Source of the DNA: Lasiosphaeris hirsuta
Lineage: Eukaryota > Ascomycota > Sordariomycetes > Sordariales > Lasiosphaeriaceae
DNA: 64,000 bases
Assembly (NCBI GenBank): GCA_030549175.1
Contig: JAUKUA010000002.1
Coordinates: 6,572,001 to 6,636,000, forward strand
Direction of reading: 5' to 3'
Every line of letters starts with the position of its first letter. The stretch's first letter is position 1. Shown piece after piece: positions 798-61,837 of this stretch. Position numbers and translations under genes: made by a program. The notes under the pieces are model-generated. The model did not search any database and had not been told where the DNA came from. It saw only the letters and a program-made list of their open reading frames with translations.

Positions 798-1719
798 ATT
801 CAGGTTTTGCTTTGTGGTGGCGGTGGAGCTCAGTCCTGCTCTGGTAATCCGAGCCGTCGTTGAGGTCGATCAAATCTGCCACGCCTTGGTAATGATATTT
901 ATCTCAGTGTGTGACCACCCAGGCATCAAGACGCCAAATTATACCGATTTTATCGCCAATGACCTCGAGCGCGTACTTGATTTGTTTTGGTACACAAAAT
1001 CAGACCTGGTGTTCTTGCCGCCATGTATGATGAACGTGCTGACAACACGTTGCACGGGGCCTGGGTTCTGGATCAGCAGGTGAATTGAGCAGTTTCCTAT
1101 CGGCACAGGGATCTACCAGTTGTCAACCCTCCAGCCAGAGTTTGGCACGCCTTTGTTGTGAGTTTTCGAATTTGACCACATTATGATGATAAGTTGCAAC
1201 ACTGGCAATGATGGTGGTTCTCGCACTGCTGGAAACAAGTTGCTCGCAATGAATGCTAACCAGAAGTTCCAATCTAGTAGGCTGCGAAGCACATCCAGAC
1301 GGGAGCCAGCTCGGAGCAGTCACTTCGTCTGCGAGAGTCTTGCGTAATGTAAGTGCCGAGTGGCTTGCTCGCTTTTGGAAAGGATGGTTAGCTGTGGCTT
1401 GGGCCTGAACTTCGACTTTGCATGCGAGTTGGCTCCTTCAGCACACTCCGAAACCTCGTATGCCGAGTGCCATTATTAACCCAAATTTACTACCTATTGG
1501 GTTTTACACATGGCAATCGAAACACGTTCGCTCTGAACAAGTGGGTAGTCTCATGGACACTTTAGCAGTCACACGGCCACCTCCCAATTACAGCTCCGGT
1601 CGAAGAATAGTATTAGTCGTCTAGGCTTCCTCGTTGATGGCAATCCATAGCATATTACCCTATATAAGGACAAGCATGTCATCCCGCAGCTTGACCTCCC
1701 TGGGTTTCCCCAGCATACA
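798..1719. other. Intergenic, only short frames
   Basis: About 0.9 kb with short open frames of fewer than 105 codons on either strand, none with recognisable motifs or splice structure. The part near 1,640-1,700 has a TATATAAGG box-like element but no gene follows on the plus strand. Confidence 0.35.
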
Positions 1720-3663
1720 TCACTGTACATAGCAACTGCCTACGAATCGATATCCCATCCCTAGGTTCTGGATTCCTTCTTCGGACCGACGTAACACAGA
1801 CAAATTGCACGCCCCCCACAAGGCAGCAATTTCCTCACCCACCCTCGCTCCAGCAGGAACCACTCCAAGGCGTCCAGCCAGCGTGCGGCAGAGGCGACTA
1901 TTCCCCATCATTCTCCCGACTGCGTAAAGAATCTTTCCGACGTTCTCCCGATCCTCTGGGTCGAGTTCATCATCCATAACCACACTGTCAGTCGTGTGCA
2001 ACTTGCAAAATGTTGCACGTAGCTTCGGCAGACTGTGGCCAGCAATGAGCTCACAAGCATCTCCGGTGACGGTTCTCCAAAGCAGCTCTTCGTAGTCCTC
2101 GTATGGATATAGGTCCATAGAGGATCCTTTTGCCAGCTTAAGGGACTCTCGCACGAGGGCGAGTATTTGTTGGAAGGACTTTTCCGGGCGGGCTAACAAC
2201 TGGTCGCGTTGGATGGTTTCGATCCGCCAGATCTGTCCGAGTTGGGCGATTTTGCCGGTGATGGTCCCGCGAACAGAAATAAGGTCTTCATCGTTCTGTA
2301 GTCTGCAGATGGAGCTTTTCAAATGGGTAGCTGCACGGAAGGATAACCCGTCGTTTGACGCCCCTCGAGTGGGTTGCAGAGAGGCAAACAAGTCCGGGCA
2401 CCACGATGGAAGTTTCAACTCGTCTGCCTCCAGAGACCTGTCGACGCACCCGGCAAGATCGATTAGGGAAATATCCCCGTCAACAAGAGCATTCTTTGCT
2501 GCGTTGAGAATAACCGATCGGTCGGTCGTAGATTCCGTGTAGTCGATTTCCGCCTGTGGGAATGACTTGGCAAGAAGTCCACTCAGAGCGTAAACCTTGT
2601 CCTTGAGGAAAGTGGCTTCAAAGCGTGTACATGACCTCAGTAGAAATCCTGGCGATAGTCCACCGGTGACCTTGAATGAATGGCGGATCGTCTCCATCTC
2701 GTGAATGTTTGAAAACCCCCTGATAACAGAACGGTCAAAGCCTCCGGGCAAAACACTAGCGGTGCCAATGAACAAGCAGGACCTGATAGACGGTTCCTGT
2801 TGATAGACCTTGTTGACCACCTCGACCAAGGTATCCCAGTCGCATTGCTCCTCCCCATGTCGGAGCACCAGCCTCTTCCCACACGCCACTTCCTGGACCA
2901 TCCACACCCGGCAGAACCACTTGTTTCGCAGAAGATTCGTGACAGCGCGCCATTTCGAGCCGCGTAGACTGAAGTTGGTTGACTTGGGATCCAAACTCAA
3001 AAGCCGCTCTGACTCCACTACAGCAATGGCCGGAAGTCCAACGAGCTGCGATAACGCTCCGCGGGACTCTCTACCCCGGCCAAGCCACCCAATGACGGTG
3101 GCTGCTCCCCCGAATATGTCTTTCATCAGCCCGATTTGCCATGCCTTTTCCGTCTGGTCGTCCTGGCGAATGCATATCGAGTCGATCCAGAGGTATCTCT
3201 CTTGATCTGGCAACTGGAGCGTCTGTAAGGCGTCCTTGACATTTGACATGACCCAGAGTCGACGGCCGCCAATGAGGATGGGGTACTGAATGCTGCCTTT
3301 GGTCCAGCGGTAGGATAGAGCGTCGAAACCGAGTCTCGCCGCTGAGTCTAATGGCTTGGAGATGAGCTCCCCGTGGATGATCCCCGAAGGGTGTTTTGGA
3401 TACAGCTTCAGCAATCTGATGTCGCGACTGTTTTCGTTCAGTTGGCGCTCGGAGCTGTAATCGTAATCATGCAGCCAACATGTTATCACAAAATGCCAAC
3501 CGTATGAAGCACGCGCTTGAAAGTAAGAGAGGATGTGCGAATAGAGCGAAGTAACAGTGTTGAGGGCCGAGTTGGAGAAGGTCCAAAACATCTCCGCTAC
3601 AATGACTTTAAACGTGAGAATCGGGAATAAAAGCAAGCCCAGGATGATATGAAGCCAAGTCAT
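1720..3663 (-). CDS. HET-domain protein with N-terminal membrane segment
   Basis: Single-exon 647-aa protein of the heterokaryon incompatibility (HET, PF06985) family. Seen: FDALSYRW at residues 113-120, LWIDSICIRQDD at 158-169, then the ATVIGWLG stretch at 188-195, the usual three HET blocks, followed by a WFCRVWMVQE-type segment. HET domains trigger cell death when incompatible fungal cells fuse; the role here is inferred from family. Residues 1-27 are strongly hydrophobic, suggesting a membrane anchor, which is unusual for HET proteins. The C-terminal half (about 300-647) has no domain I can name. The frame is continuous upstream into the small membrane ORF at 3682-4110, interrupted by a single TAG, so the true N-terminus may lie there. 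Confidence 0.85.
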   Translation of the reverse strand: MTWLHIILGLLLFPILTFKVIVAEMFWTFSNSALNTVTSLYSHILSYFQARASYGWHFVITCWLHDYDYSSERQLNENSRDIRLLKLYPKHPSGIIHGELISKPLDSAARLGFDALSYRWTKGSIQYPILIGGRRLWVMSNVKDALQTLQLPDQERYLWIDSICIRQDDQTEKAWQIGLMKDIFGGAATVIGWLGRGRESRGALSQLVGLPAIAVVESERLLSLDPKSTNFSLRGSKWRAVTNLLRNKWFCRVWMVQEVACGKRLVLRHGEEQCDWDTLVEVVNKVYQQEPSIRSCLFIGTASVLPGGFDRSVIRGFSNIHEMETIRHSFKVTGGLSPGFLLRSCTRFEATFLKDKVYALSGLLAKSFPQAEIDYTESTTDRSVILNAAKNALVDGDISLIDLAGCVDRSLEADELKLPSWCPDLFASLQPTRGASNDGLSFRAATHLKSSICRLQNDEDLISVRGTITGKIAQLGQIWRIETIQRDQLLARPEKSFQQILALVRESLKLAKGSSMDLYPYEDYEELLWRTVTGDACELIAGHSLPKLRATFCKLHTTDSVVMDDELDPEDRENVGKILYAVGRMMGNSRLCRTLAGRLGVVPAGARVGEEIAALWGACNLSVLRRSEEGIQNLGMGYRFVGSCYVQ

Positions 3664-3681
3664 CTCTATCTTCGGTAGAAG

Positions 3682-4110
3682 CTAGGCTGTGGTGGCCTGG
3701 GCTACGGCTGGAACAACGTCGCGGAGTATGCCGGCAAACTCATCGTCGTGAATCGCATACCATATGTTGGTTCCGACGTCACTGCTATGAGCCCCTACCC
3801 ACATCCGTAAGCGTCTTATGATGCTCCCACTGACTATGTCGATGGTAAAAATGATATTCCATCCACCCCGGCAATAGAGTTGCTGTCCCATGAAACGATA
3901 TGCCAGCAAGGCCGACACGACGCAAACCCATTCTCGCATCGCGAGGTAATTAACGATATGGGTGACGAGTAAGAGATTGATGACATTTTTGGAGTGGCCA
4001 AAGGTGCCCTCGATACCGAAGATAGCGAATGCCTGGAGGAAGGAGAATGCAATGCCATGATTAAGGGGTAATGAAGCCGGGTCAATTTCGCGGGGTAGCG
4101 GTGAGGCCAT
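3682..4110 (-). CDS. Small multi-pass membrane ORF, possible N-terminus of HET gene
   Basis: A 142-aa ORF with an ATG at 4110 and several hydrophobic stretches (around residues 20-35, 42-75 and 80-95), so probably multi-pass membrane. It ends in TAG at 3684-3682 and lies in the same frame as the HET ORF, with only six codons between that stop and the HET ATG. I tested obvious intron solutions (the GTATGC donor in this ORF with nearby AG acceptors) and none restored the frame. It could be a separate short gene, the 5' part of a HET gene split by one nonsense mutation, or a readthrough product. No function is assigned. Confidence 0.45.
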   Translation of the reverse strand: MASPLPREIDPASLPLNHGIAFSFLQAFAIFGIEGTFGHSKNVINLLLVTHIVNYLAMREWVCVVSALLAYRFMGQQLYCRGGWNIIFTIDIVSGSIIRRLRMWVGAHSSDVGTNIWYAIHDDEFAGILRDVVPAVAQATTA

Positions 4111-5459
4111 GATTACTATGGCTGAGCGGTTCTTGTACTTTCGACGGACTTATTGTGGTTGAATTGATCGGCTGACTGTAGTTTGCATGAAATGCCATGG
4201 CATGAGTAATATTATAAGGTAGGTAAGCTCAAGGGGTATTTTTTAGCTCCCAAGTCAATGTGAAACAGGGATGAAGCGCCTTGTTGTCTAGCCTCACAGC
4301 CACGGCGCTTAATCTCCAAATCACGTATGAAGGTTCGAGATTGCGTTTCTGTTCGCTAAGTCTTTCACTTTATACCCTCCCTGACAAAGCTGGTGGGCGT
4401 TTCCATGGCATAGAATAGGCAAATACCGTCTCAAAGTACATAAACATACGGGTCAAGCTTACCCACGAATTCCAACAATGGCTTGGAGTCCAGCGAGCTG
4501 AACCACACGCAGCATAGTTAGCTGCCCACAGCCCAACAATCACCATCTCCCTCGTAGGAATTCTAACCGTTTTATCGGCTCCGAATACTCTCGTCAAATC
4601 CCCATTTAGGCTCCAAACACCGCTTTTCTCTGCCGCTCTTACTCAATTCGCCACCTCACCGAGTTACCAGTTCAAATGCTTTGTATCATACTTATACGAA
4701 ATTTCCCCCATATTAAGAGGTACCAACCCGAGCGCAACTGCCATCCATCATCCGATATCGCTGGTGAGGGCGATGAGATCTGGGGATTTGGCGTTTTCTT
4801 CCATCTTGGGGGTGTGGATTGTTATAGCGCGTAGGTATGAATAGGTAGGTAGGTGTTTGTTGCCAGTGATGATTTGAGGTAAGTGGCAAGTGCACGAGTT
4901 GAGAAAACTTAAAAGAGAATACGGCAAGGTCGAGGTTTTGAGGTGTGCGATGTGCCAAGTCCACCTCCCAAGTCCGCTGTCGATACGCACTTGGCCAAGG
5001 CGGCGAATGAGCCATTCGACTTACGTGGGTGGCGCCGCTATATAGTAAATTGTACACTTCTCCGAGTTCAGATAGCACTGTATGACTGCTTGAGAAAGGC
5101 CTCGCCTCTGGCCTTAGGTCACTCGGGTTACGATCTTGTAGAAGACAGACGGTACGCTTGGAATTCTACGTAGAAAAAGAAGATACGGGGAAAATAAAGC
5201 CAAGCACGACGGGAAAGGCGCCAACTGTTTGTAAAAAAGAATACCATAAAGAAGTTGATCCCTCCAAAACAATTCATATCCTGGCGAAGGAAAATCCAAA
5301 ACCGTCGATTGTAACCGTTTCACGCCGAATTCCAGTCCTGAATAAGTGCCCGCTACGACACAACAATATCCACATCAAGAAACATCCTCGCAGACCGCTT
5401 ATTCACCACCCAGACCAGAGGTGATATATCCTTTCTAATGCGGCTCTCACACACACTTG
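4111..5459. other. Intergenic, no supported gene
   Basis: About 1.35 kb without a convincing gene. Overlapping short frames at 4.7-5.1 kb on the minus strand include a peptide starting MEENAKSPDLIALTSDIG that stops at once; it may be a gene remnant but nothing supports it further. Short TAGGTAGGTAGG-like tracts occur near 4,838. Confidence 0.35.
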
Positions 5460-6089: not shown

Positions 6090-7146
6090 AGTCCCTTGTG
6101 TATGTTGAAAAGTATATGATGATTGATGGCGATGAGTTCGGCCTTCCTTTGGATCTTTCGATGGATGGTGCGATTGGGCCAAGGGCGGGGTTAACCTGGG
6201 AGAGCCTCTCTCTGGTTGCTTCAGCTCGGGCTGGGCATCGTCGCAAAATGGAGGCGGGGCTCATGCAATTCCGCACGTGCATCTGCGTTGTTACTCTGTG
6301 GCGGTCTCATCCATGTACACGCTATTAAGATACTGGGTTTAATCATGACTTCGGCTAGGCACGACTTTCATAACCGCAAGAGACACTTCCGACCTTTCAA
6401 CTCATCTTCGGCCCCTATATTGGCACCCTCGTTCTGTTCGACACGACCTTCGCCTTTTGCTTTCAGGACCCGGTGACGGGCGAGATATCGACGCAGCCAA
6501 GGGGCCCTCTGCAAAACGGATTCAACACAAGCACTCGCCAGCTGGGACGCAACCTGTGACCAGGCACCCCAAGCTGGGTTTGGTCAAGCCTGCCACTTGC
6601 ATGCAGAGGGATTGGTGGGCGCACAAGTTAATCACCATCCGATCCAAAGACATGAAATCCAAAGACAGAGTACTTTAGCAGTTTCCTCACACGTGATTGC
6701 TCATTGATCGCTCCGTCTTTGAGGGTCTTGCCTGGCAGACTTCCCCAAATCTTCTCTTTGACCCACGGGTCATTGCTTGTTGTCCAGTCACGATTTGTTT
6801 GCCTTGTTTTGTTTGCCGCTTTCTCTGCGCACAGAAAATTTTGGGCAGCAACCGAAACCTTCCATGTAGCTCTTCGAAGTTCCTCCGGACTCCCCTCAAG
6901 TAGTATTAAATCGGCCAGCCTGCCCTCGATGCTTCCGACAAAACTATTTTCCATCCACAACTCATCTCTTCTCCGTTCCCTGCCTACGTGACAAGACGGC
7001 CGGACGAACTGAGTATTGCTGGCCCGGGCCGGACTTCTGCTTCTATCGCCTCCTCCCCACCTCCGACTCCGTCAAACAAACGGGAGGTGACGCGACCACA
7101 CACGGTCTTCCGAACCCGCGAAGCATCCCCAAGAAGTACGAGACAT
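6090..7146. other. Intergenic, no supported gene
   Basis: About 1 kb. Short frames on both strands around 6.6-7.2 kb overlap one another and carry no recognisable motif. The last part (from about 7,000) grades into the transposon relic: just before the repeat arm the plus strand reads ATVVAIDV, similar to a reverse-transcriptase core strand. Confidence 0.3.
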
Positions 7147-7238
7147 ACGATGTGGCAACCGTTGTGGCTATCGATGTGGACCCTGGTCAAGGAGGTGATA
7201 TACCCCGTTGACCTTAGGTGAGCTCAGCAGTGTGACAC
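7147..7238 (+). repeat. Left arm of an inverted repeat around LINE debris
   Basis: This 92-bp arm closely matches the reverse complement of 8117-8207; only scattered mismatches separate them, and both share GTTGTGGCTATC and GTTGACCTTAGGTGAG. The arm itself reads as part of a reverse-transcriptase relic. Confidence 0.75.
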
Positions 7239-7246
7239 TATAGTAA

Positions 7247-8000
7247 AGAAGGACCTATTAGACTATATCCATTACTACGCTGATGATGTCATAGTCTTAG
7301 CTTTTGGGAAAACAGAAGAATCTATGTGGGCTAAGCTTATAGCTAGGCTAAGAGAGCTCTTGATATAGAGAAAGGATAATGGGATGCTCGATAACGTAAA
7401 AAGTAAGTATATCCTCTTTACGCCAAAAAAAAGGCCTGAAGCTAGATATCTTAATATAGGAAGTCGTAGTACCGCATAAGGAAGCCTTACAATAACTAAA
7501 GATATAGTTCGACCCCCTCCTCTACTTTAGGGCCTACGCTAAGCCAATAGCGGGTAGAGGTAAACCTATAAACATACTCTTAAAGCGGATTTTAACAAGG
7601 TTAAGGAGCTAGTCCTAAGACTTATAGTTTAAGTAGTTAAGACTATTCTCTTACCTATACTCCTATATGTAGTCAAGACTTAGTACGGCTAGTATAGAAA
7701 ATATTTCATTAGCGATATACTTGATGTAGTAGTTAATAACAGCCTCTAAGTAGCCTTACTAGCTTAGTTGACTACTTGGATCTTGGTATTATATCTGGAA
7801 TCTAGTGGTCTTACCGCTTAATACCTAATTGAAGAAAGGAAGAACACCTTTGCAAGGTAGCTTATCTAGCTAGGCGATGCTTACTCCGTAGTCTATAAGC
7901 TATATAAGCTCCATATTTTTAGTAAGAAAAAAGATATCTTCCTAAAGAAGGTTACTTACTACGACGGTAAGGCCCCGCCTCTATATGATAACTTCCTATA
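7247..8000 (+). mobile_element. Degraded non-LTR (LINE) reverse transcriptase
   Basis: The plus strand reads YIHYYADDVIVLAFGKTEES, containing the YADD catalytic box of a reverse transcriptase with the following hydrophobic strand. Downstream blocks (SKYILFTPKK, then after stops VVKTILLPILLYVVKT) match the order expected in fungal Tad1/I-type LINE proteins. Several TAG/TAA stops and strong AT bias fit decay by RIP-like C-to-T change. No intact ORF remains. Confidence 0.65.
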
Positions 8001-8116
8001 AACTAAAGGCATAGGGAAAGATACCCCAATAAAAGACTTAGCTTCGGCCGCTACCTAAGAAAGTAAGTAGAGGGACTGCCATAAGATGGAAAGGAAGCGC
8101 CGGCTATAGTAATACT

Positions 8117-8207
8117 GTGTCACACTGGTGGACTCACCTAAGGTCAACAGGGTGGATCACCTCCTGACCTGGGTCCACCGTGATAGCCACAACGACGGCC
8201 ACATCGT
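8117..8207 (-). repeat. Right arm of the inverted repeat
   Basis: Reverse-complement partner of 7147-7238, separated from it by about 880 bp of LINE debris. The two arms could fold into one long hairpin if transcribed. Confidence 0.75.
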
Positions 8208-10289
8208 GGCTCAACCTGTGGGACACGCACACACACCACAATCGAGGGCTGCATTAGCCAGCCAAGAGACCTACACGATGTTTCAGCAGGACTTTCAATG
8301 ACAGGCCTCCTAGTTATCCCAGCGGTTCCAGTGGACAACCTGAACCCCGACGTTCTCCGGAGTCTAGCCTCAGTGGTGACAGGTGGCTGTAGTCAAACCT
8401 AACTGGGCCCTAAGGAGTCATAAAGGGAACCGTCGTCATTCGACGTAAGTACCAAGGACGTGAAGGAACCTCCGTGGTCGTGGGTACCATACCATCGGAG
8501 TTAGTACTAATACCGGCCGTGGACTACCGAAGGATAGGTCAGTAACACTTGGCAGGAACCCTGATTGATAGGACGTGAGAGACGGGCGGCTAAGGCCCCG
8601 GGCCGGTGAAGCGGCTAAGGAAGGATCTTTATGTATCTTGGTATCCTTGTATATTATATATAGCCTCCATAAAAGAGACGAGGGCCCTACGATGGATCCT
8701 CGAGAGGAAGAAGCTCCCCAGGCCTTTTTGGAAACAGCCTAGAAAGATTATCAGCTGAACTTCAGTGAAGCTGAGGGGTAAGACAACCTTGTGAACCCTA
8801 CTGTTTCTCATTGACTTACAACTACGAAGCATCGTCTACTATCTTCTTTGTAATCGTTCCATCTCCCTACATCTACGTTCTCCCTCACAACTACCAGGAC
8901 TTTGGGTTACAAAGATCATCTCCCTCACCTAGTGTGAAAGCTCTGAATCAGACCAGCACCATTGCCGGCCTGGAGTGGACGGTTGAGTTGATCTAGATCA
9001 TAGCTCTACAGTTCGGTCATACCGATGGTGACATACCTTGTGATTGCCACACCCCAGTCTCGGTGACTGGCCTGTGTCACATACTGGTAGGACGAAATTC
9101 CTAAGAACTACCGGTTCTGAAAGATCTGCTAGAAAGATAAGTTACCCGAATTGGCCTTATCTCACAAGGCCTACGTAGCTTTGTTAGCAAAGAGAACCGG
9201 CCATAGAGACATTAAGGAGTACTATAAGTAATTTAACCACGACCTAGAGACCTAGGGGCCCTGTGACTACGATACCTATAAAAACTAAAGATATATACTT
9301 ACGTGCCCTTAGAACGCAAAGCTGTTACCTACTTATAACGCGAGCCTGTCAGAAGCACTGTACTTTTGATGGGGGTTGGAATTGTGTGATTGTATTGCTA
9401 CTTATAGTTACATCTTTGTTGTAGAACAGCATCTTTCTGGCTGAGGCACTCTTTAATAGCTTTGATTTTGCTAGCTCAATTAACTGCTTACAAATTGATT
9501 CTATATTGAATACGAAGAAATTTGGCCTATAATTGAAGGAGTTGTGGTCGATTGAAGTTGGGGGTGATGGAAATGGCTGTGTGGGGTGCCAATTCGGGAA
9601 TGGGGTTAATTCCATAACTGGGTTAACGCGTCTAAAGGTACGTCGGGCGAAGACTGTTAAGGGCTTTTTTAGGTTTATGGTACTTGAGACGTTTTTGTGG
9701 ATTCGGGAGAACTCGAGGACGAAGTTAGGGGATTTGGATATTAATACGGATAGTCTGTTGGAGGTTGGGTTTGTCAAGAAGATTTAGTGGTGGTTTTGGG
9801 TGGTGGTGGTGCTTGGAGTCGCTCATTTAGCCCAATCTGGAAGAGATATCAAAGCCGTCGCTTCAGAGGGATGCAGCTTGAATGACACATTCTGTTATTG
9901 TTGTAGACGGTATCACCCTACATGTATTGAGACACGGCTCAACGACCAGAACTGGAGGTGGCAAAAAAGGACTCGAGTTTGTGGAGCTGGTTGCTCGCTC
10001 TAAATGGTGGAGAAGAAGATGCGTTATAAGGCTATCGCCAGTCCTGTATTTGGTTATTTTCAATCCTTAATCAAATCATAGATCTGGGACTACAGTAATG
10101 TAATTCGAGCCCTTTCCCCCAGTTGCAATTCCATAACCTCGACGTGGTAAAGCTTCCAGACCGGTTCGCCCCCTTGCGGCTTGAGAAAAACCACTCAAAG
10201 CCAGAGAACAGACATGTTTCGGCTACATCAGTATCGACTTGGACATTGAGAGAAGCCAGCTGGTATCATGCCCCTGAAGTCTCATCTCC
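8208..10289. other. Transposon-like debris, no intact gene
   Basis: About 2.1 kb. A TATA-like box (TATTATATATAGC) near 8,650 followed by a pyrimidine-rich stretch to about 8,935 has the look of a retrotransposon LTR promoter, but I could not define its ends. TGTGTCACA-type words recur at 8,113 and 9,071. Frames at 9.35-9.79 kb (142 codons minus, 84 codons plus) and at 9.80-10.07 kb have no motifs I can name. Confidence 0.35.
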
Positions 10290-12717: not shown

Positions 12718-13671
12718 CTAAGTGTTGCTGCTCCTCGAGCGACCCGGAAGCTGCTCAGGCTCTTCGTACTCCACCCACTTTGGGTCAATATACACTGCAT
12801 TGCCTTCCTCATCCCGGATGATGCCGACCTGACCAGATCCCTCCAGCTCGTCAAGCTCATCATTGTAATCCTCAAGCGTGTCGCCGCGACTATCGAGCCC
12901 AACGAGATATGACTCTTCAACCACCATATCCCCTCCGGTATCCTGACCGCCACGAAAGTCAGGGAGTGTCTTGATTACCGTCTTGTCCTTGGGTACTTCC
13001 CCAGAAACACCCTGTTCGTACTTCTCTATCACGACCTTGCGGAACTCAATGGAAAAGATCCGCTCGCCGCTCACCATGAACCTTTCGATCCCGCCTCCGG
13101 TCCTCGTCCTAGTCCAACCTCCACCAATATCACCAGCATCGCCAATATCGCCAGCGGGAATTCCGGCCGCCGCCAAGGCGATTTTTCCAGCTGGGACTTC
13201 GGCGTCAATTTTCCACTCTGTTCCCTTGCCATTCTCGACCTCGACGGTGGAATCAACAAAGGTCCTTGTCGCCGTGACGAACCAGGCATCGCCCTGTTTG
13301 TAGACCCCCGACAGAAAGGTCGAAGCCGCACCCTTAGTCTCGTCTTTGGTCAACATATCCTCCCAGAACTTCTCTGGATTTTTGAGCCAGTTCTCTTTCC
13401 CCTGCTCGGCGGTTACATGCAAGGAAACGTTCCGCGATTTGTCTCGTGAGAGGTGCAGCAGCCGGGTGAGCTGAGCAAAGAAACCGCTCGCAACCTCGGA
13501 TTTGAGCACTCCATCAAAGCCGTCTTGGTCGCTGGATTTGGAATCATCTGGATGGGCTGGTTTGATGACCTCGACACTGCGATGGGGCCGGAGTATGTCG
13601 GTGACTAGACTACCCAGGGGGACTTCGTTCAGAGCAAATGGGATCGGGGTGAAGACGAGAGTTTTTGCCAT
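12718..13671 (-). CDS. Gasdermin-like pore-forming cell-death protein (predicted)
   Basis: 317 aa, single exon, ATG at 13671 in good context. I read it as a fungal gasdermin-like protein (relatives: Neurospora RCD-1, Podospora HET-Q1). The N-terminus is TLVFTPIPFAL then VPLGSLVTD (residues 4-25). A middle strand follows (GDAWFVTATRTF, 127-138), then GERIFSIEFRKVVIE (202-216), the beta-hairpin pattern of gasdermin N-domains. The tail from about 235 is acidic and may be the inhibitory segment removed on activation. Size is a little above the 250-300 aa usual for fungal members. Fungal gasdermin genes commonly lie beside a protease gene, and here the divergent neighbour encodes a CHAT protease, which supports the call. 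Expected role: membrane permeabilisation after cleavage. A structure-based search is needed to confirm. Confidence 0.6.
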   Translation of the reverse strand: MAKTLVFTPIPFALNEVPLGSLVTDILRPHRSVEVIKPAHPDDSKSSDQDGFDGVLKSEVASGFFAQLTRLLHLSRDKSRNVSLHVTAEQGKENWLKNPEKFWEDMLTKDETKGAASTFLSGVYKQGDAWFVTATRTFVDSTVEVENGKGTEWKIDAEVPAGKIALAAAGIPAGDIGDAGDIGGGWTRTRTGGGIERFMVSGERIFSIEFRKVVIEKYEQGVSGEVPKDKTVIKTLPDFRGGQDTGGDMVVEESYLVGLDSRGDTLEDYNDELDELEGSGQVGIIRDEEGNAVYIDPKWVEYEEPEQLPGRSRSSNT

Positions 13672-14408
13672 TGTTTGCTTTCCGGTGATTGATGACGAGC
13701 TCTGATTAAAATAGAGAACAAAGCCTGCAGGGCTGAAACGTTAATGCAAGTTGCAAAGCGAAATGTCGACCTAGATTGCTTGGGTTGAGGATTGGTGAGT
13801 TCGCGGACATAAATGCAACTCCAACCGTATCCAACAATGGAATGGCTTTTGAGGTTCTTTCAGCTAGAGTGCTATCGCCAGACAGGTCATGCAGAGGTCA
13901 TACATCAAAAACGCCATTATGCAAAAATCACGTTATATTGCAAAGCGCGTCCACTCGCAGGAATGAAGCTGAGGGCTCCGCCTTGGATATAGGATGTGCC
14001 ATCGACTCGTTCGGGACTGTTTTGACTTATCATTGACAGAATGTCACGCTAGAATATGTTGTGCAACCATTTGCAGCCTGTTGTCAGTCGGTGGCGTTGA
14101 AGAGCTTGTGGCGCCCACATCTCGACCACCAACTATCGCTCAGCAACGTCCAGATATCGTGATGGTGGTCTGATCGACTTGGAAATGTGGGGCGTATCGA
14201 GACTCTTCAATCTTGGCTCTATTTTCACCGTGTCTGTGCAGCTCTAATAAATTCCCGTGGTTGGGAAGACTTTACCGTTGCATTCATTCAATATTTTGGA
14301 TCGCGGGGGCAACGACTTCTTCATTCGCATTCCTCCCCCCTTAAGTCACTAGTCATTGTCATTGCCCCTTACGTGACAGCTAGCAACCACTCGACCGACA
14401 AATCCACA
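13672..14408. promoter_or_regulatory. Shared divergent promoter region of gasdermin-like and CHAT genes
   Basis: The two start codons face away from each other across 737 bp, so both genes probably draw on this region. No discrete operator was identified. The CHAT frame is open from an upstream ATG at 14187, but the 14409 start is preferred. Confidence 0.4.
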
Positions 14409-17400
14409 ATGGAAAGCGGAAGCGGGGGCAGCAGAGAAGCATCCGAGAAGAGCTCGTCATATCTTCAAGCATGGTTTCAAACTCACAAAGACAATGACCT
14501 CGAGAGAGCACTGCACTATGCGATGCAAGCCCTCGACTCTTGCTTAAAGGGCAACTTAGAGTACGGGTTAGCCCTGCTGCGAGTTGCTGCGACAGAGTAC
14601 TTTTCAGCAAGGAAGTTGCCAGCCATGCTACCCAAGGCTGTGATGGACTTCATGGAGGGAATGAAGCTGGTCCCCAAGTCTGCGCCGGAGAGGGTCGAGT
14701 ACGCCAATGTGTTTCTTCAAGCAATCAAATCCAAGCTTGCAACCTCAGTTTCGGTGGCTGACCTCGAGGCGGGAATCGACACGGCCAACTTCCTCGTCAC
14801 TCACTCCCCCGAAACATACGGCACTTGGGAGGTCTGGCACGATTTGTTAACTCTTTACACCAAAAGGCTCGAAATCACGGATGATCGGTCAGTATCGCTC
14901 GTGGATGCGGCCATCGCCGCAGGAGAAGCCTGCCTCAAAGACACCGCTTTGCCGCCCACTCTTCGCAGACGCTGCCACTACGACCTTTGCAACGTCTTTT
15001 TTACCAGGTTCAGTCTGAGGGACAAGAGCATCGAGTCAGATATCATCAGCGCCGTCGAGCATGGAAAGAGACTCATAGAAGATGCTCCACCCAATGACGA
15101 GAAACTTGCGCGGTGGTACGTGGCTTTGAGCCGGGCATTGGCTGCTCGCTATTCTGCGACGAGAGAGCCCCAAGATCTGCGCGACGCGGTTGAATGTGCC
15201 GAAAGCGCCAAGGCGTATTTCGACGATGGTTTCAACAAAGGAGTCGACAAGGCCACGGTCCTCAACAACCTCAGCAATAGACTGGGCGATCGGTACGCAG
15301 CAAGCGGCAGCTCTCAGGATCCAAGGCACGCGATCGAACTGGCCAGAGAAGTGCTGGAATTGGCACATGGCGCCCCGGATCTGCGCGTCTACAAGCAGAA
15401 CCTCATCGACCTGCTCAACACAAGCTTCAACGATTCGGGCAACGAAAAGCATCTCGAAGAAGCTATCTCACTCGGTCGAGAGTTAATCCAAGGCGAGGAG
15501 AGAAAACCGGACCGTGGCCGGCCGGCCAATCTCACCGTTCTAGCTTCGTCGTTGAGTTACCGATACAGTTTGAGACATTCGCTGGATGACGTCCGCGAGG
15601 CCATCAAGCTCGTGCGAGAGGCCATTCGCCTAACAGATGCCTCCCATCTCACATACAATGTTATGCGGTCGAATCTCTCCAAGTTTCTGAAGCTGCTCTA
15701 CGCCCGAACGAAGAACTCGGAAATCATGAGGGAGGTCCTGGAAATTCAGGAGGCCGTCTACCACTCTAACAACCCCGACCGCTCCGAAATGCCTCGGTAC
15801 ATGGATCTTCTGGCAAGCTCCTACGATGACCTGTTTCTTCAGACAGACAATGTCAAATACAGTGATAAGGCTTTGGAGCTGGGACAATCCGTAATAGCTA
15901 TGAGGGACCCCCCTGATCCATCGAGAGCAGTTGCCTACACCAACCAGAGCGCCAGGTATTGGAGTCGATGGACACATCGACGAGACTCCGCGGCACTCGA
16001 CCAGTCAATTGACCATGGCTGGCATGGTCTAGGATGCTATGCAGAGACTCAACCCGACAGAGCTCTCGCCTGCAACAATCTTGGGACCATGCTCAATGCG
16101 CGATACAATGTCAGCGGACAGGCTGGGGATAGGGCTGAGGCAATTCGGGTCTTCTTCGACGCCTTCAGACAGGAGAATGCCCTACCAATCATCCGAATCG
16201 AAGCCGGACGGGCCGCAGGGATCTTGTATGGCGAGGACCAGCGGTGGCAGGACTCTTGCGAGACTCTGGAGGGGTGCGTGAGGATGTTTCCAAGACTCAC
16301 ACCCCGGTCGGTATCACGGGGGGATCAACAGGACAATCTTGCTCACTTGTCCGGCATCTCGAGCCTCGCTTGTTCGGCCGCTATCATGGCGGGAAAGACG
16401 CCAGCAAGCTGCCTAGAGATCCTAGAAACCGGCCGCGGCGTCATCTCCGGACTGGCCATGTTTCTGGAAGAGGATATCTCCCGTTTGCAGCGGCTGCATC
16501 CTGAGACCTACGAGCGTTTTCACAAGCTGCGCAATGCTGTCTCAAACGCACTGCCATCTTGGGAGGATTCTCAGGCCCAGAACAACGAGTTTGACGGACT
16601 CCTAGAGCATATTAGGGACCTCGATGGTTTCAAAAGTTTCCTGCTATGCCCTAGTGCAGAAGAGGTCATGTCGCTTTCGAAGCGCGCTCCCATCGTTTGC
16701 CTCAACGTGACCGAACTCGGCAGCCACGCAATCCTGGTTGCGCATGGAGAAATCAGCACCCTGCCGCTCCCTGGTCTTTCCTACGAAAGGCTCGAACAGG
16801 AAGCTGCGACATTTCTTCAAATTCCCAACGTGAGCTCCAACACATATAAAGCAACAAACGCAAAGCTGAGAGCGCTGGCGACTTGGCTGTGGGAAAGGGG
16901 CGTCGGGCCCGTCCTTCAATCTCTCGACGTGCTCCCCCAACAAACACCCCGCACGGGAAAGCTCCCGCTTGTGTACTGGATGCCATGCGGGCTGCTCAGC
17001 CACATGCCCATCCATGCCGCCGGGATATATAAACCGCATTCCAAGGAGAGGGTTGAGGATTACATCGTGTCGTCTTACATCACGACGCTGAAATCCGCCG
17101 TCCGGAATCTCAATGCAGCTTCCAAACAGACGGAATCTGTATGGACACAACCCATGATCGTCTCGATGCCCGAGACCGCGAGGCGGTTGCCTCTTGCCGC
17201 AGCGGAAGAAGCCCGCGCTATTTGCAAGTGTCTCGGCCTCGTGATCCGCTCAACCAGCGGTGATCTGGTCATGACGAATCCGGCCAAGGAGGACGTGAAA
17301 GCACGGCTGAAGGACTGCACACTGGCGCATTTCGTGTGTCACGGCGAGTCCTCAGCCGTCGACCCGTCCCAGAGCAGACTATGCCTCGGGGCATCCGGCG

Positions 17401-17837
17401 CGGCGGAGCCGGAAATGCTGACGATGGAGGAGCTGGCGGCCATGGGCATGGCTTCGGGGCGACACAGACTCGCGTATTTATCTGCGTGCTCGACGGCCGG
17501 GAATGCCTCCAGCCGGCTCCATGACGAAGTCATACACCTTGCGAGTGGCTTCCAGCTCCTTGGGTTTAGCCACGTTATTGCGACGCTGTGGCCGGCGAGC
17601 AACAGGGCTGCTGTTCCCATTGCGGACAGGTTTTATAGCCAGCTTGTGCGGAACTGGGCTGGCATCAAGTCCGGGGATGGTCAGGTTGGGAATAGTGCGA
17701 TCGAGGAGTGTATCGCTGATGCTTTGCATTATGCGGTTAGTGAAGTGCGTCTGCGAGGTATTCCGGGGGAAGCTCCGCCAAAATGGCCGCCGATGGATGT
17801 ACTTGCTTGGGCACCGTTTGTGCATTTAGGGCTGTGA
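14409..17837 (+). CDS. TPR-CHAT caspase-like protease
   Basis: 1142 aa, single exon. The ATG at 14409 (CACAATGG context) is chosen over the in-frame ATG at 14187, whose 74 extra codons look non-coding. Residues from about 60 to 680 are helical tetratricopeptide-type repeats (e.g. LNNLSNRLGDRYAASGSSQD, SSLSYRYSLRHSLDDVREA, NNLGTMLNARYNVSG). From about 690 a CHAT domain (PF12770, clan CD peptidase related to caspases) follows, with the typical VYWMPCGLLSHMPIHAAG block. The catalytic pair is intact: His978 in HFVCHGES and Cys1027 in LSACSTAG. CHAT-TPR proteins act as signal-gated proteases; TPRs are likely the sensor or partner-binding part. Position beside the gasdermin-like gene suggests that protein as substrate (inference). 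Confidence 0.88.
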   Translation: MESGSGGSREASEKSSSYLQAWFQTHKDNDLERALHYAMQALDSCLKGNLEYGLALLRVAATEYFSARKLPAMLPKAVMDFMEGMKLVPKSAPERVEYANVFLQAIKSKLATSVSVADLEAGIDTANFLVTHSPETYGTWEVWHDLLTLYTKRLEITDDRSVSLVDAAIAAGEACLKDTALPPTLRRRCHYDLCNVFFTRFSLRDKSIESDIISAVEHGKRLIEDAPPNDEKLARWYVALSRALAARYSATREPQDLRDAVECAESAKAYFDDGFNKGVDKATVLNNLSNRLGDRYAASGSSQDPRHAIELAREVLELAHGAPDLRVYKQNLIDLLNTSFNDSGNEKHLEEAISLGRELIQGEERKPDRGRPANLTVLASSLSYRYSLRHSLDDVREAIKLVREAIRLTDASHLTYNVMRSNLSKFLKLLYARTKNSEIMREVLEIQEAVYHSNNPDRSEMPRYMDLLASSYDDLFLQTDNVKYSDKALELGQSVIAMRDPPDPSRAVAYTNQSARYWSRWTHRRDSAALDQSIDHGWHGLGCYAETQPDRALACNNLGTMLNARYNVSGQAGDRAEAIRVFFDAFRQENALPIIRIEAGRAAGILYGEDQRWQDSCETLEGCVRMFPRLTPRSVSRGDQQDNLAHLSGISSLACSAAIMAGKTPASCLEILETGRGVISGLAMFLEEDISRLQRLHPETYERFHKLRNAVSNALPSWEDSQAQNNEFDGLLEHIRDLDGFKSFLLCPSAEEVMSLSKRAPIVCLNVTELGSHAILVAHGEISTLPLPGLSYERLEQEAATFLQIPNVSSNTYKATNAKLRALATWLWERGVGPVLQSLDVLPQQTPRTGKLPLVYWMPCGLLSHMPIHAAGIYKPHSKERVEDYIVSSYITTLKSAVRNLNAASKQTESVWTQPMIVSMPETARRLPLAAAEEARAICKCLGLVIRSTSGDLVMTNPAKEDVKARLKDCTLAHFVCHGESSAVDPSQSRLCLGASGAAEPEMLTMEELAAMGMASGRHRLAYLSACSTAGNASSRLHDEVIHLASGFQLLGFSHVIATLWPASNRAAVPIADRFYSQLVRNWAGIKSGDGQVGNSAIEECIADALHYAVSEVRLRGIPGEAPPKWPPMDVLAWAPFVHLGL

Positions 17838-54098: not shown

Positions 54099-57000
54099 TT
54101 ACCCCTTAAACTCATTTACTACTGTGATCATTAGATTATCAATGATCCGCCATGAATTTGGTACTTTGTCTTTAGCCACTGGCCGAAGCGGACCCATCTT
54201 GTACAAGTCTTGATGCTTGATGAAAAATTCCAACAACTCCCTGAGCACCCCCCTTGAGCCACCCGACCGGTGAACAGTCTGTTGGGGCACGCCCCTTTCC
54301 CAATTCATATGCTTGCTCAACGACCACTGCTTGGACCTCTCGCTGAGGATCCCGAGTTGTCGGGGATCTGGTTCCTGGTCTAATATTCCTGTCTCAAGGA
54401 CTATGTTTGGATGCCAATCTTCGTATCCATCTCCAAGGAACCGGCGTAATACAGCGACATCGGCACGCACGATCCCAAAGACTAATAGGCGGATGCCAAC
54501 GGGCCACCTCAGAAACTTCTCAGCCTCATCCTGTGGTAGTGTGGGGAGGGTTAGAAGCTCCCAAACGGCGATCCATCTCCCCGCCATAACCGCTCTGCGG
54601 AAGGCTTTCAAGAGAATGTCAAAAACAGGAATTGCCTCGCTAGTGGTCTTTTGGGAGCAGTAGCGCAGTACGCATTGCAGAAGCTCAGTCTGACTTCTAA
54701 TACTAACAAAAGATTCGTAGCACTCCATGATGATGCACTCGAGCGCCGTACTCCCGTTGGTGTCATCAAGGGCTAGGTTCGGCTTCGCTTTGAGCAGTTC
54801 TGTTGCAATGTTGATCAGGAACTGGCGCGAGCTGTCGTCCGCGGAGGAGCGTCCGCCAGCCGCCGTGGCGCAGGACGCGAGGGCGTGCAAAGCTGTGGCA
54901 CCGTCGTGGTCTTGATCGTCCACGCTCATCCCCGCCCTCAGAAGCTCCGAAACCAGCCTCGTTCTGCGCCCTAGTATCGCTGAATGTAAGATTGTTGAGC
55001 CGTTAACCCCCCGGACAGTCAAGTCGAGGGCTTTCAGGAGACGGGGGAATCGGGGGTCTCTGACTAATTCGTCGTCCCATAATGCAAGTGCATGAACCGC
55101 TGTCCAACCTGATTGATCAGTTACGGAGCATGAGGCTCCGCGGGAGAGTAGGAGGTTCGCAACTTCAAAGACAAAGCATGTCTCCTCTTGCACACCGGCT
55201 GGCTGCTGCCAGTGTAAAAACAAGGCATGGAGAGCAGTTTGTGTAGAACCGTTCGTCTCGTTAGCAGGCATACCGAGGTCCACTAGGCACCGAATCATTG
55301 GCAGGTCGAGGTTGCGGGTGGCGAGGTGTAATATTGTATCACCGTCCGGCAATTTCCGAGTAGGGTCGGCTCCAGCACTGATGAGCTCAGCGGTTTCATC
55401 CAGATATTGCAGCCGTACCGCATGGTGAAGAGGAGTCTCTCCCGACTCGTCTGTCGCGTCACGGTCCTTGACAAGCTCTAGAACTTCGGAGAAAGGGATG
55501 AGCCGGGAGAATTGCGCATCGATGATATGGTGCAAGATTCCCTTGCCGTCGCTGTCGACCTCATCAAAATACCGCCCGTCAGTGACCATCATGGAGAACA
55601 GACTATCGTTATGATAGCGAATAGACGCCACGAGTACCTGGAACCCGATCGATGGGGATATGCCGGGAAACGCAAGCTCGCCGAACTTGATATACGCAGT
55701 GGCTCTCCTGGGCGGGACCGTCCCCTCGCAGGCGATTCGCAAGAGAGCGTGGACCAATGTTTCTTTTTCAAGTTCTTGGAGGAGCGAAAAGAGCGGTGCC
55801 CTAATGATCTCGTTGGCACTGCCGATGAGATCATCTGCGGTTTCGAGGCCGTCTAGCTCGATGATTTTCCCTAGCCCGGCCGCAAGCGCCCTCATAAACG
55901 CCTGCTCTGTGTGCACGCCTACGGTTTCAGTATTGCCTTTGTGTGTCGAGACGAGTTCCCAGGCTACACTGGTTAGCGTGGAAACCATCCTCTGCTGGGC
56001 CATCCGGTCGTCTCCTCGGTGATTAATCCATCTTTCAAGGCGAGATTTCACGCAGAGCTTAGCGAAAAGGGGTTCCTTTGAGTCCAAGCACATATCGATG
56101 AGCTGACAACGCCACTTTGGGTTGGACAGGGACGCCCTCCAAAGCCCCTGCAACATGTCACTTTGGTGGTATGAGATAGCCTTCTCGAGCGGACTTTCAT
56201 GAAACAGATTCCTCTGGATATCCTGTTCTGGAGTCCTATTCAACGGATTCGCACCGGCGCAGATCAGAGCTTCAACTGCTAAACTAGAGCCGGCACATAC
56301 TGCAAATCCCAGTGGTGTCCCAGCGAGAAAGAACGGCAGCTGTAGGTCGAGTCGTTGAGTCTCGACGCAGCAAGACTCAAGGATGTGATGTCGGGCTTCG
56401 TGTTTCGGTAGTAGGCACTCCAAGGCTCGATCCAATGATTGTCTCTCTTTGTCGAACATGAAGAGGTAGTGAAGTGGTGTCGGATCAGGGACTGCGCAAT
56501 CGTCTTCCGCACCCGCTTCCTGCTCCTGAGACGATTCTGCGTTGTTGAGCACTGGCAGGAGTGATTTCAGAGCGCCGAGATCCCCAAGCTGGCATGACAA
56601 CTGGATCGCTGCACCGATATCCTCTCTGCTAGGCGCGGAATACTCATCATTGACGGCCAAGCTCTCCCCCAGCAAGGCCACGTCAACCTGGGGAGCGGAA
56701 TGCCGCATCGTACTTCTCCCCCAAGGAGAGAGGAGGCGGTATGAAGACGCAGTTGTGACGCCCAGTGAGGCCCAAATACCAGAGGCAGAAAATACCGAAC
56801 CGGAGGGCCCTGCTGCTCGAGTTTGTGCAGAATGCGGCTGGTCGAGGTCTGGGTGGCGGTCGTTGAGGATCAGGAGCAGCATATCCGCCGGAACGCAACC
56901 CAACGCAGCGCTCTTCCGCACACTCTGCAGTGCAATCGGGATGTCTTGCTCGATTCCGAAGCCGTTGAGAAGGGCAAGGCCGGTCTGCAGGGCCGCTCTG

Positions 57001-58617
57001 GCGGAGTCCTTATCTTGGCCAAGTGCCTCCCGCTTGGCGTCCAGGACCATTTTCGCCTTGACACGGAATGGAATGCGGCTTGCGACCCGTGGGGTGAAAG
57101 TCTGTTGTCATCTCTATCAGCGATAGCCACCAGACCTCTGGGGATAGATCTTGGTACTTCATAAGACCAGCTCTCTTCCGTATTGAGATGGCTATTGATC
57201 GTGGAAGAGGATTCTTCCACATCGTTCCATTCATTCCACCTGTGTGTGGTATGTCAGCCCCTCCAGAAACATGCATGCAGCTCACATCCGGCCGAACGAA
57301 TTGTTATAGACTTACGTGGAGTGTAAACCGCCTCCAAATATGAATGGCAGCTTTGTCAACTCGAAAGGCCGCTTCTGTGGGTCTTCCTGAAGAGTTATCC
57401 GGAGGATAACCTTGATGAACTGTTGTTGTAAGGAGCGGAAGTCGCGGCGGTCAGGGAGCTGGTCAATTGACGTTTCCGCAGCCTTGGCAAGCTTAGGGCA
57501 CAAGTGAAACATGTGGTCCCTTTCAATGGATTGCGTCGAAGATGGGCCGGCAGGACTATCTGCCCTGAAAGGTATGGACTTGACAGCATCCAGATTGTAG
57601 TACTGAGCGCCGTTCCACAGTACTTCCCAGCAGAGAAGACCAAGAGCCCAGACGTCGCAGCGGAGGAATTCAATCTTTCCGAGATTGGACCCATGTTGTA
57701 TTTCGGGGGCAAGGTACCTATGGGCGATTGAAAGGGAAGGTAGTTAGCAGGTGGGTATATGTAGGGGGGCGGTCTCGGCGGCTCTGCTGAAGGGGCTTAC
57801 CAAAGCGTTCCCCTGTAAATCTGAATTCCACCTTCTCTTTGTTCGTCGCTAAATAGGCATGCATGTCCGAAATCCGACTTTGGATATATGTGAGCACTAG
57901 TGTAGACACAATCAAAGACACATTCGTCATGACATACCAACTTGGCAATCACATCGGTCTCGTAGGCTCCCGACTTTGCTCCCGACGGATTGGGAAATAC
58001 CAAGACGTTCTCCAGCTTCAGGTCACCGTGACCAACGCCGGTCCAGTGTAGTCTATTCAGACCACAGGCGACCTGGCTGCATATCGACAGCTTCGATGGC
58101 ATGGAGACGTCGCCAGTCTGTAAGTACTCGCGGAGAGTGCCGAGGGAGGCATAGTCGGTCACGATGAAGGGAATGAGATCACCCCTGCGTAAGCCCCACC
58201 CATACCCTAGCAGGGTCAAGATATTTTCATGCTGGGCAATGGGCGGATGGTGCATAACCTCAATGTCCTTCAAGACACAGTCGACTCGGTTCTGGAAGGC
58301 AAAGTGGTCATTGACGTCGTCAGGAGGCTTTATCTTCTTGACAGCCACGGCTGTGCGCGTCCGGGCGTCTGTGTAACGGAAAACTGTATAAGATGCTCCT
58401 TCGCCCACCTGCTTTGGGGTCCGGAGTGATGCAGCATCGTAAAGGCGGAGATTGAGAGGTTGAATGGTCCAGAGGAGATCGTCTAGCGACCGAATCTCAA
58501 CCCCGCCCTGCCGCGAGAATCTGAGGGAGCAGGAAACAAGCGTGCGCGCAGGCGGCCGAGCGGACCGGACAGAAAAGGACTGGTGATATTTCAAGTCAGT
58601 GTCGTATTTTACCAGAA
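54099..58617 (-). CDS. Protein kinase-ankyrin fusion, 5' end unresolved
   Basis: I assemble exons 58617-57938, 57877-57801, 57717-57316, 57239-57158 and 57101-54099, with introns of 60, 83, 76 and 56 bp; all phases agree, giving at least 1413 aa. The first exon is bounded only by an acceptor (TCTTCAAG); no ATG precedes the kinase, so upstream exons are missing. Kinase: GEGASYTVF loop, VAVKKI lysine, HGDLKLENVL catalytic loop (Asp present, Arg before it replaced by Gly, a non-RD kinase), SDFGHA, YLAPEI, CDVWALG. Then a Sel1-like stretch (ALQTGLALLNGFGIEQDIPI) and several ankyrin repeats (DESGETPLHHAVRLQYLDET, PDGDTILHLATRNLDLPMIR, VNGSTILHSAILGRRTRLVS, DHDGATALHALASC). It is probably a signalling protein; no partner is known. 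It is divergent from the HeLo-pseudokinase gene. Confidence 0.8.
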
Positions 58618-59991
58618 CTTGAAGAGGGATAAGGATGAACCAACCCGGTGACTCATTCCGGGCGATGGGCCCGATCGAGTACCTATGGGGCCTGGTAGGT
58701 ACCGGCCTTCTGGCAGCCACCCTGAGTCTGTATGTGTATGTGTGGGGAAATAACCCGCCGAATCTGGCGAATCTGGCGTTAATAACACCTCTTTTCGCTA
58801 CGTCACAGCTGATAGATAGTGTTGTGTGTGGTGACAGTCGAGCTCGCCGCTGTTTTGGTTTGGAAGTCAAACGCCAATTTGCGACCGCGCTGCTCAATCA
58901 GGTCACGAGTGCCCAGTTTTCAAGAGTTCGTGGGTAGGAGGGTAAGGCTCTATCTCGATCCCAGCCCACTTGGGGTGCAGACCTATGAGGCTCTGGTACC
59001 AGTCACGGTGCGTGGCTATGTCGGCGTCACGGCGGTTGAACCACAGAGGGCCTGCTGAGCCACCTCCCTACCCCGCCAGCATGCTGCTCTAAGAAATCCG
59101 ATAGGTTGTAACACAGCGGGCAGGGTTCCGGGCGGCCAGCCCAATTGATAGATCCAAGCCACTTTTCCGAAGTGCCAAGGCGAACCTATGCAACAGATCG
59201 AACCAACAGGCTAAAAGCCGCAACGCGGCAGGCTTTCCATCCACCCCAAAGGCTTTAAACACGCGATGAAAAAGACGAGGCATTTTACTATCAGACTAGT
59301 ACTAACCAAGTTATGGTTCATGGATTGAAGGGATTATATGCAGTTGTTGTATTTTAAAATAATTTGTGTCGAGCGAGATAGAAACACAAAAGTCTCGGCA
59401 AGCTGCTAGTAAACTAGCAAATATCAGCTTTGTCTAATACCAGTCAGAATTATTAGACACTGGATGATTTACATAATCGATTCATATTACACGCTAAAAC
59501 CCTGTAGGTGTCTCAGAGACCCCCCTCATTTATGAAGCGGTGGTTCACTTGGGTAAGTTTGGTAACTGCTGAGTAGCCCAGAGCCTTATCTCCCAACGGA
59601 GGAGCTGAACCCAGTCTCTGTAGCAGCCCGACTGAAGACGGGGTAAAATCTTGGAATAACAGAGACAACAAAAAAAGTCAAAGTTAGCTGGGCCGGAACC
59701 ACAATGCCAATGAGTGTGATGTATACGATCCTAGATGCGGCCATGCCCAGTTCCCCGAGATTGGATCATGTTGATGTCAAGCTGACTGCGTGTTGTGAGG
59801 AGTGGTAAGTACCTCTTTGTATTTACCCCGCACTCGGAGGACTTATTAAATGTACGGGTGCCAGCGCTCAGGTCTCCTTCGCCTTGATATTCTGCGTGGG
59901 CAGCTCCAAGATTTCAACCCTGGCGAATTTAGGCAACCATTCCTTACCTCTCTCACCTTCCCCGAGTATTCCTTGCCCAGCGCTCTGTGGC
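58618..59991. other. Intergenic between two divergent kinase-type genes
   Basis: About 1.4 kb that probably contains the missing first exon(s) of the kinase-ankyrin gene (minus) and the promoter of the HeLo-pseudokinase gene (plus). I could not place an ATG with a valid donor. Confidence 0.4.
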
Positions 59992-61837
59992 ATGGCGGAA
60001 GTAATCGGCATAGTTGGCTTAGCAATCGCTGTTTTCGACCAGTTTCTCAAGTTGGGCGATAAGACAATTGAAACGATCCAGTGTGTTCGAACATTCGCCG
60101 AGGTGAGGCAATTACGCAGTCGCTCGCGCGCAGGCGTCCGCATTAACATGCACCGCCCCGAAGGACTTGAAAGATGCATCCGAGACAATCCGGCGTGAGC
60201 AGGGCATCGCAAAAGCTCTCAACTATCTATTGTTTGAGAAATCGCCCGTGAGTTAGACCAGATCCGCGAGGGTGTTATGGGGTTCCCGTTCCCACTGATA
60301 CTATAGACTCTGCCGTAGAAATATGGAGGACAGATGCTGTTTGAGCAATACGATGAAGAAGCACAGCGGTTCATCTTGAGTGTAGTCGGAGAGCTTGTCG
60401 ACGCGCTAGAGAGTGCTGCGAAGCTGCTTGACACCAGCCCGCCAAGTCCGCTCCCGGCAGCCGATCTGCAGCGGTCCGGTCTGAGCTCCCATGCAGGCAC
60501 TCTGAGCTCTTCCATTACACTTACCGAGGACAAAACGAACCGGGCTGGTCTCACCTTCTTTGAAAGAACCTCCAGCTCTGCGTCTCTTAGGAGAAAGCTA
60601 CGATGGTCCTTCTATGATAAGAAACGAGCCAAGGACATCATCGACCGATATGCCAAGCTCAACGGCCATCTCTACCGGGTTGTCCAGCTGAACAGTTTTG
60701 CGAGCGGGATCGGGGTCGATCTACAGCATCTCGAGAACATGAAGCAGAGCAGGGCAGCCCAAGAGCTAGGATTCGACGAGACCGCTAGTCTTCAGCTACT
60801 GGCCCGAGAAGCAGCGCTCGGCATGGCGGCGAATTTCGAGGTCTCTGATGGCTGGATGTCTACCATCGAGGATGGCAGGCAGGTGGAAGGTAGATTTGTA
60901 ACATTTGTGAATGAGGGGCGGCCATATCTGCAAGACACCTGCGAGTACAAGCTTCCAAGCATCAGCGATGGTATCGACAACCAAACTCGGTCACGTCTAA
61001 ACGGCCTCGCCGCTCTCCTCCAGCAGCCCAAAGAACAAATATTTAGAATCCCAAAGTGCATCGGATGGAAATACCTGCCGTCGACAAAAGACATTGCCTT
61101 CATTTTTGAGTCGCCCGGCAACCCTCATGCATCACAGCCGCAGAGCCTGTTGCATCTACTGAGCATGCCCGAGTTCAAACCGACATTGCAGGCCAAGTTC
61201 CAACTGGCATACAGTCTGGCGAAGAGCATCTCCCAGCTTCAGATGGTTCAGTGGCTTCACGAGAGTCTACGAAGCGAAAATATCCTGTTCTTTCCACCAC
61301 CACAGGGTGGTTCCCCGGACACAGTGGCGCTCAGTGAGCCATGGGTATTTGGCTTCGACTTCAGCCGTCCCGAGAACTTCTTCTCATATGGGTTTGCAGA
61401 CTCTGAGCCTGAACGGGATATTTATCGACATCCAGAACGACAGGGAAACCCCACGGCCATGTTCAGCAAGTGGCATGATATATATTCACTTGGTGTCATG
61501 CTCCTCGAGATTGGTATGTGGCCCCCCTTCAAGTCGCCACCCTCCATACACTGACCGTGATCGTGTGGCAGGTATCTGGGAGCCCGCAATACAACAGGAA
61601 CATCCCCGCGACCAGTTCAAGAACATGAAAACCCCTGAAGATAGGAAAAACCGACTGGTCAAGGTTGCAAGAAAACGGTTGCCGCCAAAGATGGGGGGAA
61701 AGTATAGCGACTTGGTCGTCCGCTGTTTGACGGGAAACTTTGACGTTGGGGACGACACAAAGGGGGATATCAAACTACAGCAGGCATTCAGATCACAGGT
61801 TATTGAGGCTCTCGGGAGGGTCCTTGAGAGTATTTAG
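59992..61837 (+). CDS. HeLo-like domain plus pseudokinase protein (MLKL-like layout)
   Basis: Four exons (59992-60102, 60164-60247, 60319-61513, 61572-61837) with introns of 61, 71 and 58 bp; 551 aa in one frame. The N-terminal about 120 residues begin MAEVIGIVGLAIAVFDQFLK and include YGGQMLFEQYDEEAQRFILS, the pattern of fungal HeLo/prion-inhibition helical domains. The C-terminal half is kinase-like: HESLRSENILFF in place of HRDxKxxN (catalytic Asp lost), FGFDFSRPE in place of DFG, HDIYSLGVMLLEIGIW in place of DxWSxG, and no clear VAIK lysine. It is therefore a pseudokinase. A four-helix membrane-active domain ahead of a pseudokinase is also the layout of animal MLKL. A cell-death role is inferred from family. 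Confidence 0.75.

Follow-up and report, generated by a model that had tools for sequence, protein, structure and literature searches.

The window analysed here, a stretch of 64,000 nucleotides, is part of the 44.4-Mb, 14-contig genome of the fungus Lasiosphaeris hirsuta and ends about 39 kb short of the end of contig C7. It carries a gasdermin-like gene encoding 317 aa and a TPR-CHAT protease gene encoding 1142 aa, which are placed head to head with a start-to-start gap of 737 bp, as a preliminary description of this DNA had stated, and whose features are collected in Table 1. Each gene is a single open frame, and the 1142 codons of the TPR-CHAT gene contain no internal stop; the earlier statement that both genes are intact holds. 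The frame of the TPR-CHAT gene opens at an upstream GTG (1216-aa open reading frame, 14187-17837, + strand), and the in-frame ATG at 14409 was taken as its start because the homologues P0009 and P0010 begin there too. The copy of this gene in the protein collection, P0008, is 1104 aa long and starts 38 residues downstream of that ATG.

Table 1. Features of the gasdermin-like and TPR-CHAT gene pair of L. hirsuta (positions in the window).
Feature	Position	Strand	Basis
Fungal gasdermin-like gene, 317 aa, single open frame	12718..13671	-	Open reading frame list
Acidic C-terminal tail, residues 243-317, net charge -16; putative inhibitory segment	12721..12945	-	Charge count
Putative cleavage linker, residues 236-250, with conserved F239, R240, G242 and G246 where the acidic tail starts	12922..12966	-	Conservation
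Intergenic region, 737 bp, between both start codons; presumed shared promoter	13672..14408	.	Open reading frame coordinates
TPR-CHAT protease gene, 1142 aa, single open frame	14409..17837	+	PF12770 CHAT, E 6.1e-31; TPR_10 under cut-off; homologues
C-terminal CHAT (caspase-like) domain	16872..17828	+	PF12770, residues 896-1214 of the 1216-aa reading frame
His978 codon, presumed catalytic histidine	17340..17342	+	Context HFVCHGE; invariant in alignment
Cys1027 codon, presumed catalytic cysteine	17487..17489	+	Context YLSACST; invariant in alignment

The sequence blocks VPLGSLVTD and GERIFSIEFRKV, from which the 317-aa protein had been recognised as of gasdermin type, were both found in its open reading frame. 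A Foldseek search with the predicted structure of this protein placed RCD-1 chains at the top, the Neurospora RCD-1 pore being matched at E 2.6e-5, and all six matches at E ≤ 0.001 were gasdermins. Gasdermins also filled rows 1-21 of 50 in the VIA alignment, and bacterial gasdermins were among the top structural matches. On the basis of this modest model, the protein is predicted to adopt a gasdermin-type N-terminal fold, in agreement with the fold proposed for it earlier. A Pfam scan of the 317-aa protein returned no family match, neither PADLOC nor NCBIfam named it, and the gasdermin profile PF04598 found nothing at E ≤ 10 in the whole genome. When the 317-aa protein, two of its alignments and two paralogues served as queries against solved structures, neither sequence nor profile searches yielded a gasdermin or anything convincing. 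Six further database proteins match the 317-aa protein, each at E ≤ 1.1e-70, and the sole addition obtained with profile A3 from the protein collection was P0035 (B0H67DRAFT_591498), the paralogue on contig C12 of L. hirsuta itself (311/311 residues identical).

The acidic tail ascribed to this protein was confirmed by its net charge, which is -16 over residues 243-317 versus -4 over residues 1-242; the tails of the other three open paralogues in the genome, with starts chosen by hand, have net charges of -11 to -15. Residues F239, R240, G242 and G246 are invariant in 7/7 close members, and in a ten-row alignment F239 and G242 are kept in at least 90% while G246 is invariant. Because the conserved F239-R240-x-G242 block lies at the start of the tail, and because the fungal gasdermin HET-Q1 is reported to be cut at F238 with the loss of 40 C-terminal residues (PMC10989679), residues 236-250 are taken as the likely cleavage linker. 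The position of this block ahead of the tail is consistent with the cut after about residue 235 that the preliminary description had proposed.

In the TPR-CHAT protein, the CHAT domain PF12770 scored 108 bits (cut-off 24). The TPR_10 match was weak (E 1.1e-4, 22.6 bits) and under its cut-off of 27.5 bits; the best-scoring other match to this protein in the genome, on contig C1 (36% over residues 541-1079), has a strong TPR_10 match (E 4e-38). The NCBIfam Csx29 model matched weakly (E 7.2e-6, 25 bits versus a cut-off of 300), and no solved chain matched at E ≤ 0.01. Full-length identity to the TPR-CHAT protein was 70% for P0009 and 64% for P0010. His978 and Cys1027, previously described as intact, are both present and invariant across the six-row alignment A2, composed of the window frame, P0008 and P0009-P0012, and the His/Cys dyad of the CHAT domain is presumed to be catalytic.

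With regard to other genomes, two of the six gasdermin homologues besides that of the window are linked to a CHAT homologue by the same longest contig figure: P0002 (63%) with the CHAT protein P0009 (70%) at 19440 (lgn), and P0004 (58%) with P0010 (64%) at 17433 (ena). This linkage was read from longest-contig figures only, in a collection that shows no gene order or direction. Three homologues (P0003, P0005 and P0007) lie on contigs of at most 2187 bases, too short to tell pairing, and for P0006 (Cosmosporella sp. VM-42, contig 4129826) no CHAT partner was there among the 27 CHAT matches listed. The expectation that homologues of both genes travel together is supported by these two linked pairs and by the genome of L. 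hirsuta itself.

In this genome, six gasdermin-like places were found with four protein queries in a search that was not directed at S8-linked gasdermins. Four of them are strong and have open frames, on C7 (the window), C12, C11 and again on C7; identity among these four gasdermins, taken over the best local alignments (one of which covers only 39 residues), is 24-29%. The genome gave 14 CHAT matches, one of which is a separase (Peptidase C50); five of the six places, the four strong ones among them, have a CHAT match within 5 kb, in each case head to head. Random gene placement would give the observed proximity at p ~2e-12, a value for pairs that are not to be counted as independent events because an ancient duplication of whole pairs is possible. 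In three other pairs the first ATGs are 295-389 bp apart, and the dyad motifs His-Gly and Ala-Cys are present in all five paired CHAT genes. The CHAT domain is C-terminal in two partners, those of the window and of C11 (a 1642-aa frame with TPR matches under cut-off), and N-terminal, followed by a long body, in three, those of C12, of the second C7 place and of C13 (split). The CHAT genes of C12 and of the second C7 place have one presumed intron each, with splice signs plausible by eye, and the latter shows an AAA match above cut-off and NACHT/NB-ARC matches below.

The gasdermin-like place on C13, counted as paired, is weak (E 0.97 in the genome search, 6.7e-5 for one piece with the family profile). 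At this locus (L031, G000:C13:830500-839500) a gasdermin-like gene in two frames at ~1290-2134 (-) faces an N-terminal-CHAT gene at 2196-3438 (+) that is broken up into several frames, and the pair is apparently broken, introns being possible. The sixth place, C9:623692, is doubtful (E 0.46 and 0.16), has none of the 14 CHAT matches nearby and was kept in the denominator of six; it corresponds to a stretch at 4752-5210 (+) of L049 (G000:C9:618800-628799), inside a 153-aa frame. A gasdermin-family profile built without the window protein was run against the frames of at least 40 codons in 10 kb at each of the remaining nine CHAT places (L039-L047), and no match below E 1 was obtained; those at L039 (E 1.9) and L046 (E 4.4), both above E 1, were taken as noise. 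In L039 (G000:C1:478000-487999), a TPR-CHAT frame at 1770-5180 (-) faces a 692-aa caspase-domain (Peptidase_C14) frame at 6581-8656 (+) across a gap of ~1.4 kb; no gasdermin was detected there, and this couple is possibly a different CHAT-centred pair. In L041 (G000:C7:433500-443499), a 298-aa frame at 6691-7584 (+) and an 822-aa CHAT frame are arranged head to head; the 298-aa frame matches neither the gasdermin profile nor Pfam.

Lasiosphaeris hirsuta and Podospora anserina both belong to the order Sordariales. Two papers were found to name L. hirsuta, one of them, to judge by the titles, describing a genus and the other re-evaluating taxonomy. Of the gasdermin genes of fungi, about 80% are reported to cluster with a gene for a protease (63% with S8 proteases, 19% near CHAT), and CHAT is carried by dozens of NLR-like proteins (PMC10197012); elsewhere, CHAT is given for ~17% of gasdermin-partner proteases (PMC10989679). 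Such clustering with a protease gene is found here, with a CHAT gene 737 bp off in the window and at four further places of the genome, one of them split. In P. anserina, a two-gene cluster is described in which a TPR-CHAT protease activates the neighbouring gasdermin (PMC12881547 and PMC10197012, citing Clave et al. 2022). As in the window, the gene of a CHAT protease with TPRs adjoins that of a fungal gasdermin in this cluster; activation is reported there, whereas it is proposed for the window pair, and the two are likened by description. The preliminary description was right that gasdermin genes tend to stand beside protease genes in fungi, but it cited only the subtilisin pair HET-Q1/HET-Q2, although these reviews describe the TPR-CHAT/gasdermin pair directly. 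The HET-Q1 gasdermin is also controlled, as that of the window would be, by a protease from the same locus, but HET-Q2 is a 388-aa S8 protease (PMC10989679), in contrast to the 1142-aa CHAT protein. Bacterial gasdermins likewise have the gene of the pore former beside that of its protease (PMC12881547, PMC10197012); the bacterial systems are antiphage, whereas the window gasdermin matched no PADLOC model. Csx29 of type III-E CRISPR shares with the window protein the NCBIfam TPR-CHAT name, by the weak match given above, but sits in a CRISPR context, which is not expected in a fungus. The TPR-CHAT/gasdermin pairing is thus already published in fungi, and what is less ordinary is that a single genome holds several CHAT/gasdermin pairs and that their sensors come in two designs.

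Open frames, dyad residues, a gasdermin-type predicted fold and recurrent pairing were directly seen, and the locus is very probably a two-gene fungal pyroptosis-like module, composed of a TPR-CHAT sensor-protease and a latent gasdermin. In this module the TPR array of the 1142-aa protein would sense a trigger, perhaps a non-self or stress signal, upon which the Cys/His dyad of the CHAT domain would be activated; the activated CHAT domain would cut the gasdermin near residues 236-250 and release the acidic tail, and the freed N-terminal domain would oligomerise into membrane pores, with death of the hyphal compartment. For this pair we infer the trigger, the cut and its position, and the ensuing pores and cell death; proteolytic activation is favoured because of the pairing, the acidic tail and the published precedent. 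The activator of such sensors is considered a major open question in a 2025 review (PMC12881547). The predicted model of the 317-aa protein weighs against the module, as it is modest (pLDDT 49) and its TM-scores are low; because of these scores, confidence in the module was slightly lowered and that in a MACPF or other fold was raised.

A role as a heterokaryon-incompatibility (het) locus like het-Q1/het-Q2, with alleles differing by strain and death upon fusion of unlike strains instead of infection, is compatible with the two-gene module and possible, if rather unlikely. A HET-domain (heterokaryon incompatibility) frame of 647 aa at 1720-3663 (-), E 2.8e-28, lies ~9 kb from the pair, and the Aspergillus fumigatus incompatibility locus hetB is reported to be a CHAT gene (PMC11138114). 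However, this proposal is based on one strain, in which both genes share one haplotype, whereas het-Q1 and het-Q2 alternate at one locus as idiomorphs (PMC12881547), and the window pair does not consist of an S8 protease gene at alternative idiomorphs. It is improbable that the gasdermin acts like RCD-1 of Neurospora crassa, activated without cleavage by a divergent allele after hyphal fusion, with a CHAT neighbour that only primes it or has another role: RCD-1 chains are the best structural matches, and RCD-1 acts through two coexisting alleles without proteolysis, but RCD-1-1 and RCD-1-2 total 257 and 244 aa (PMC12881547), against a 75-aa acidic stretch past residue 242 here, and a CHAT neighbour is present at 4/4 strong gasdermin places of the genome. 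Marginally less probable still is that the 317-aa protein belongs elsewhere in the MACPF/CDC superfamily or is an unrelated beta protein, the CHAT neighbour processing a different substrate; MACPF/CDC proteins do occur in its structural match lists, no sequence family matches it and model confidence is modest, but gasdermins fill the upper VIA rows and all Foldseek matches at the threshold above, and size, acidic tail and protease pairing all fit fungal gasdermins.

The two-gene module of the window adds one TPR-CHAT/gasdermin pair, together with three further open CHAT/gasdermin pairs in the same fungus, and four open pairs of two sensor designs make the specificity of each protease for its own gasdermin directly testable. 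More tentatively, and at somewhat less than even probability, the four open cassettes and the split-frame fifth of this genome may form a modular, inflammasome-like receptor set, coupling a rapidly diverging gasdermin to different kinds of sensor and giving each receptor a pore former of its own that fits its protease. Two sensor designs occur in that set: the CHAT domain is either C-terminal and preceded by a TPR-like array, or N-terminal and followed by a long receptor-like body, one of these bodies having P-loop NTPase matches.

With regard to the preliminary suggestion that much else in this region is dead and that the intact pair may be under selection, the window, annotated in part of its 64 kb, also holds long open frames matching HET, lipase and ankyrin. 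An ankyrin-repeat frame (983 aa) adjoins a partial protein-kinase-domain frame (366 aa) on the same strand (54099-58897, -). Dinucleotide ratios of the kind left by repeat-induced point mutation passed the chosen cut-off in 2 of 127 overlapping 1-kb windows, both inside 7001-8500. A 406-aa frame at 60334-61554 (+) matches HeLo and DUF7580 weakly, in both cases under cut-off, and may be a further fungal gene of the cell-death type.
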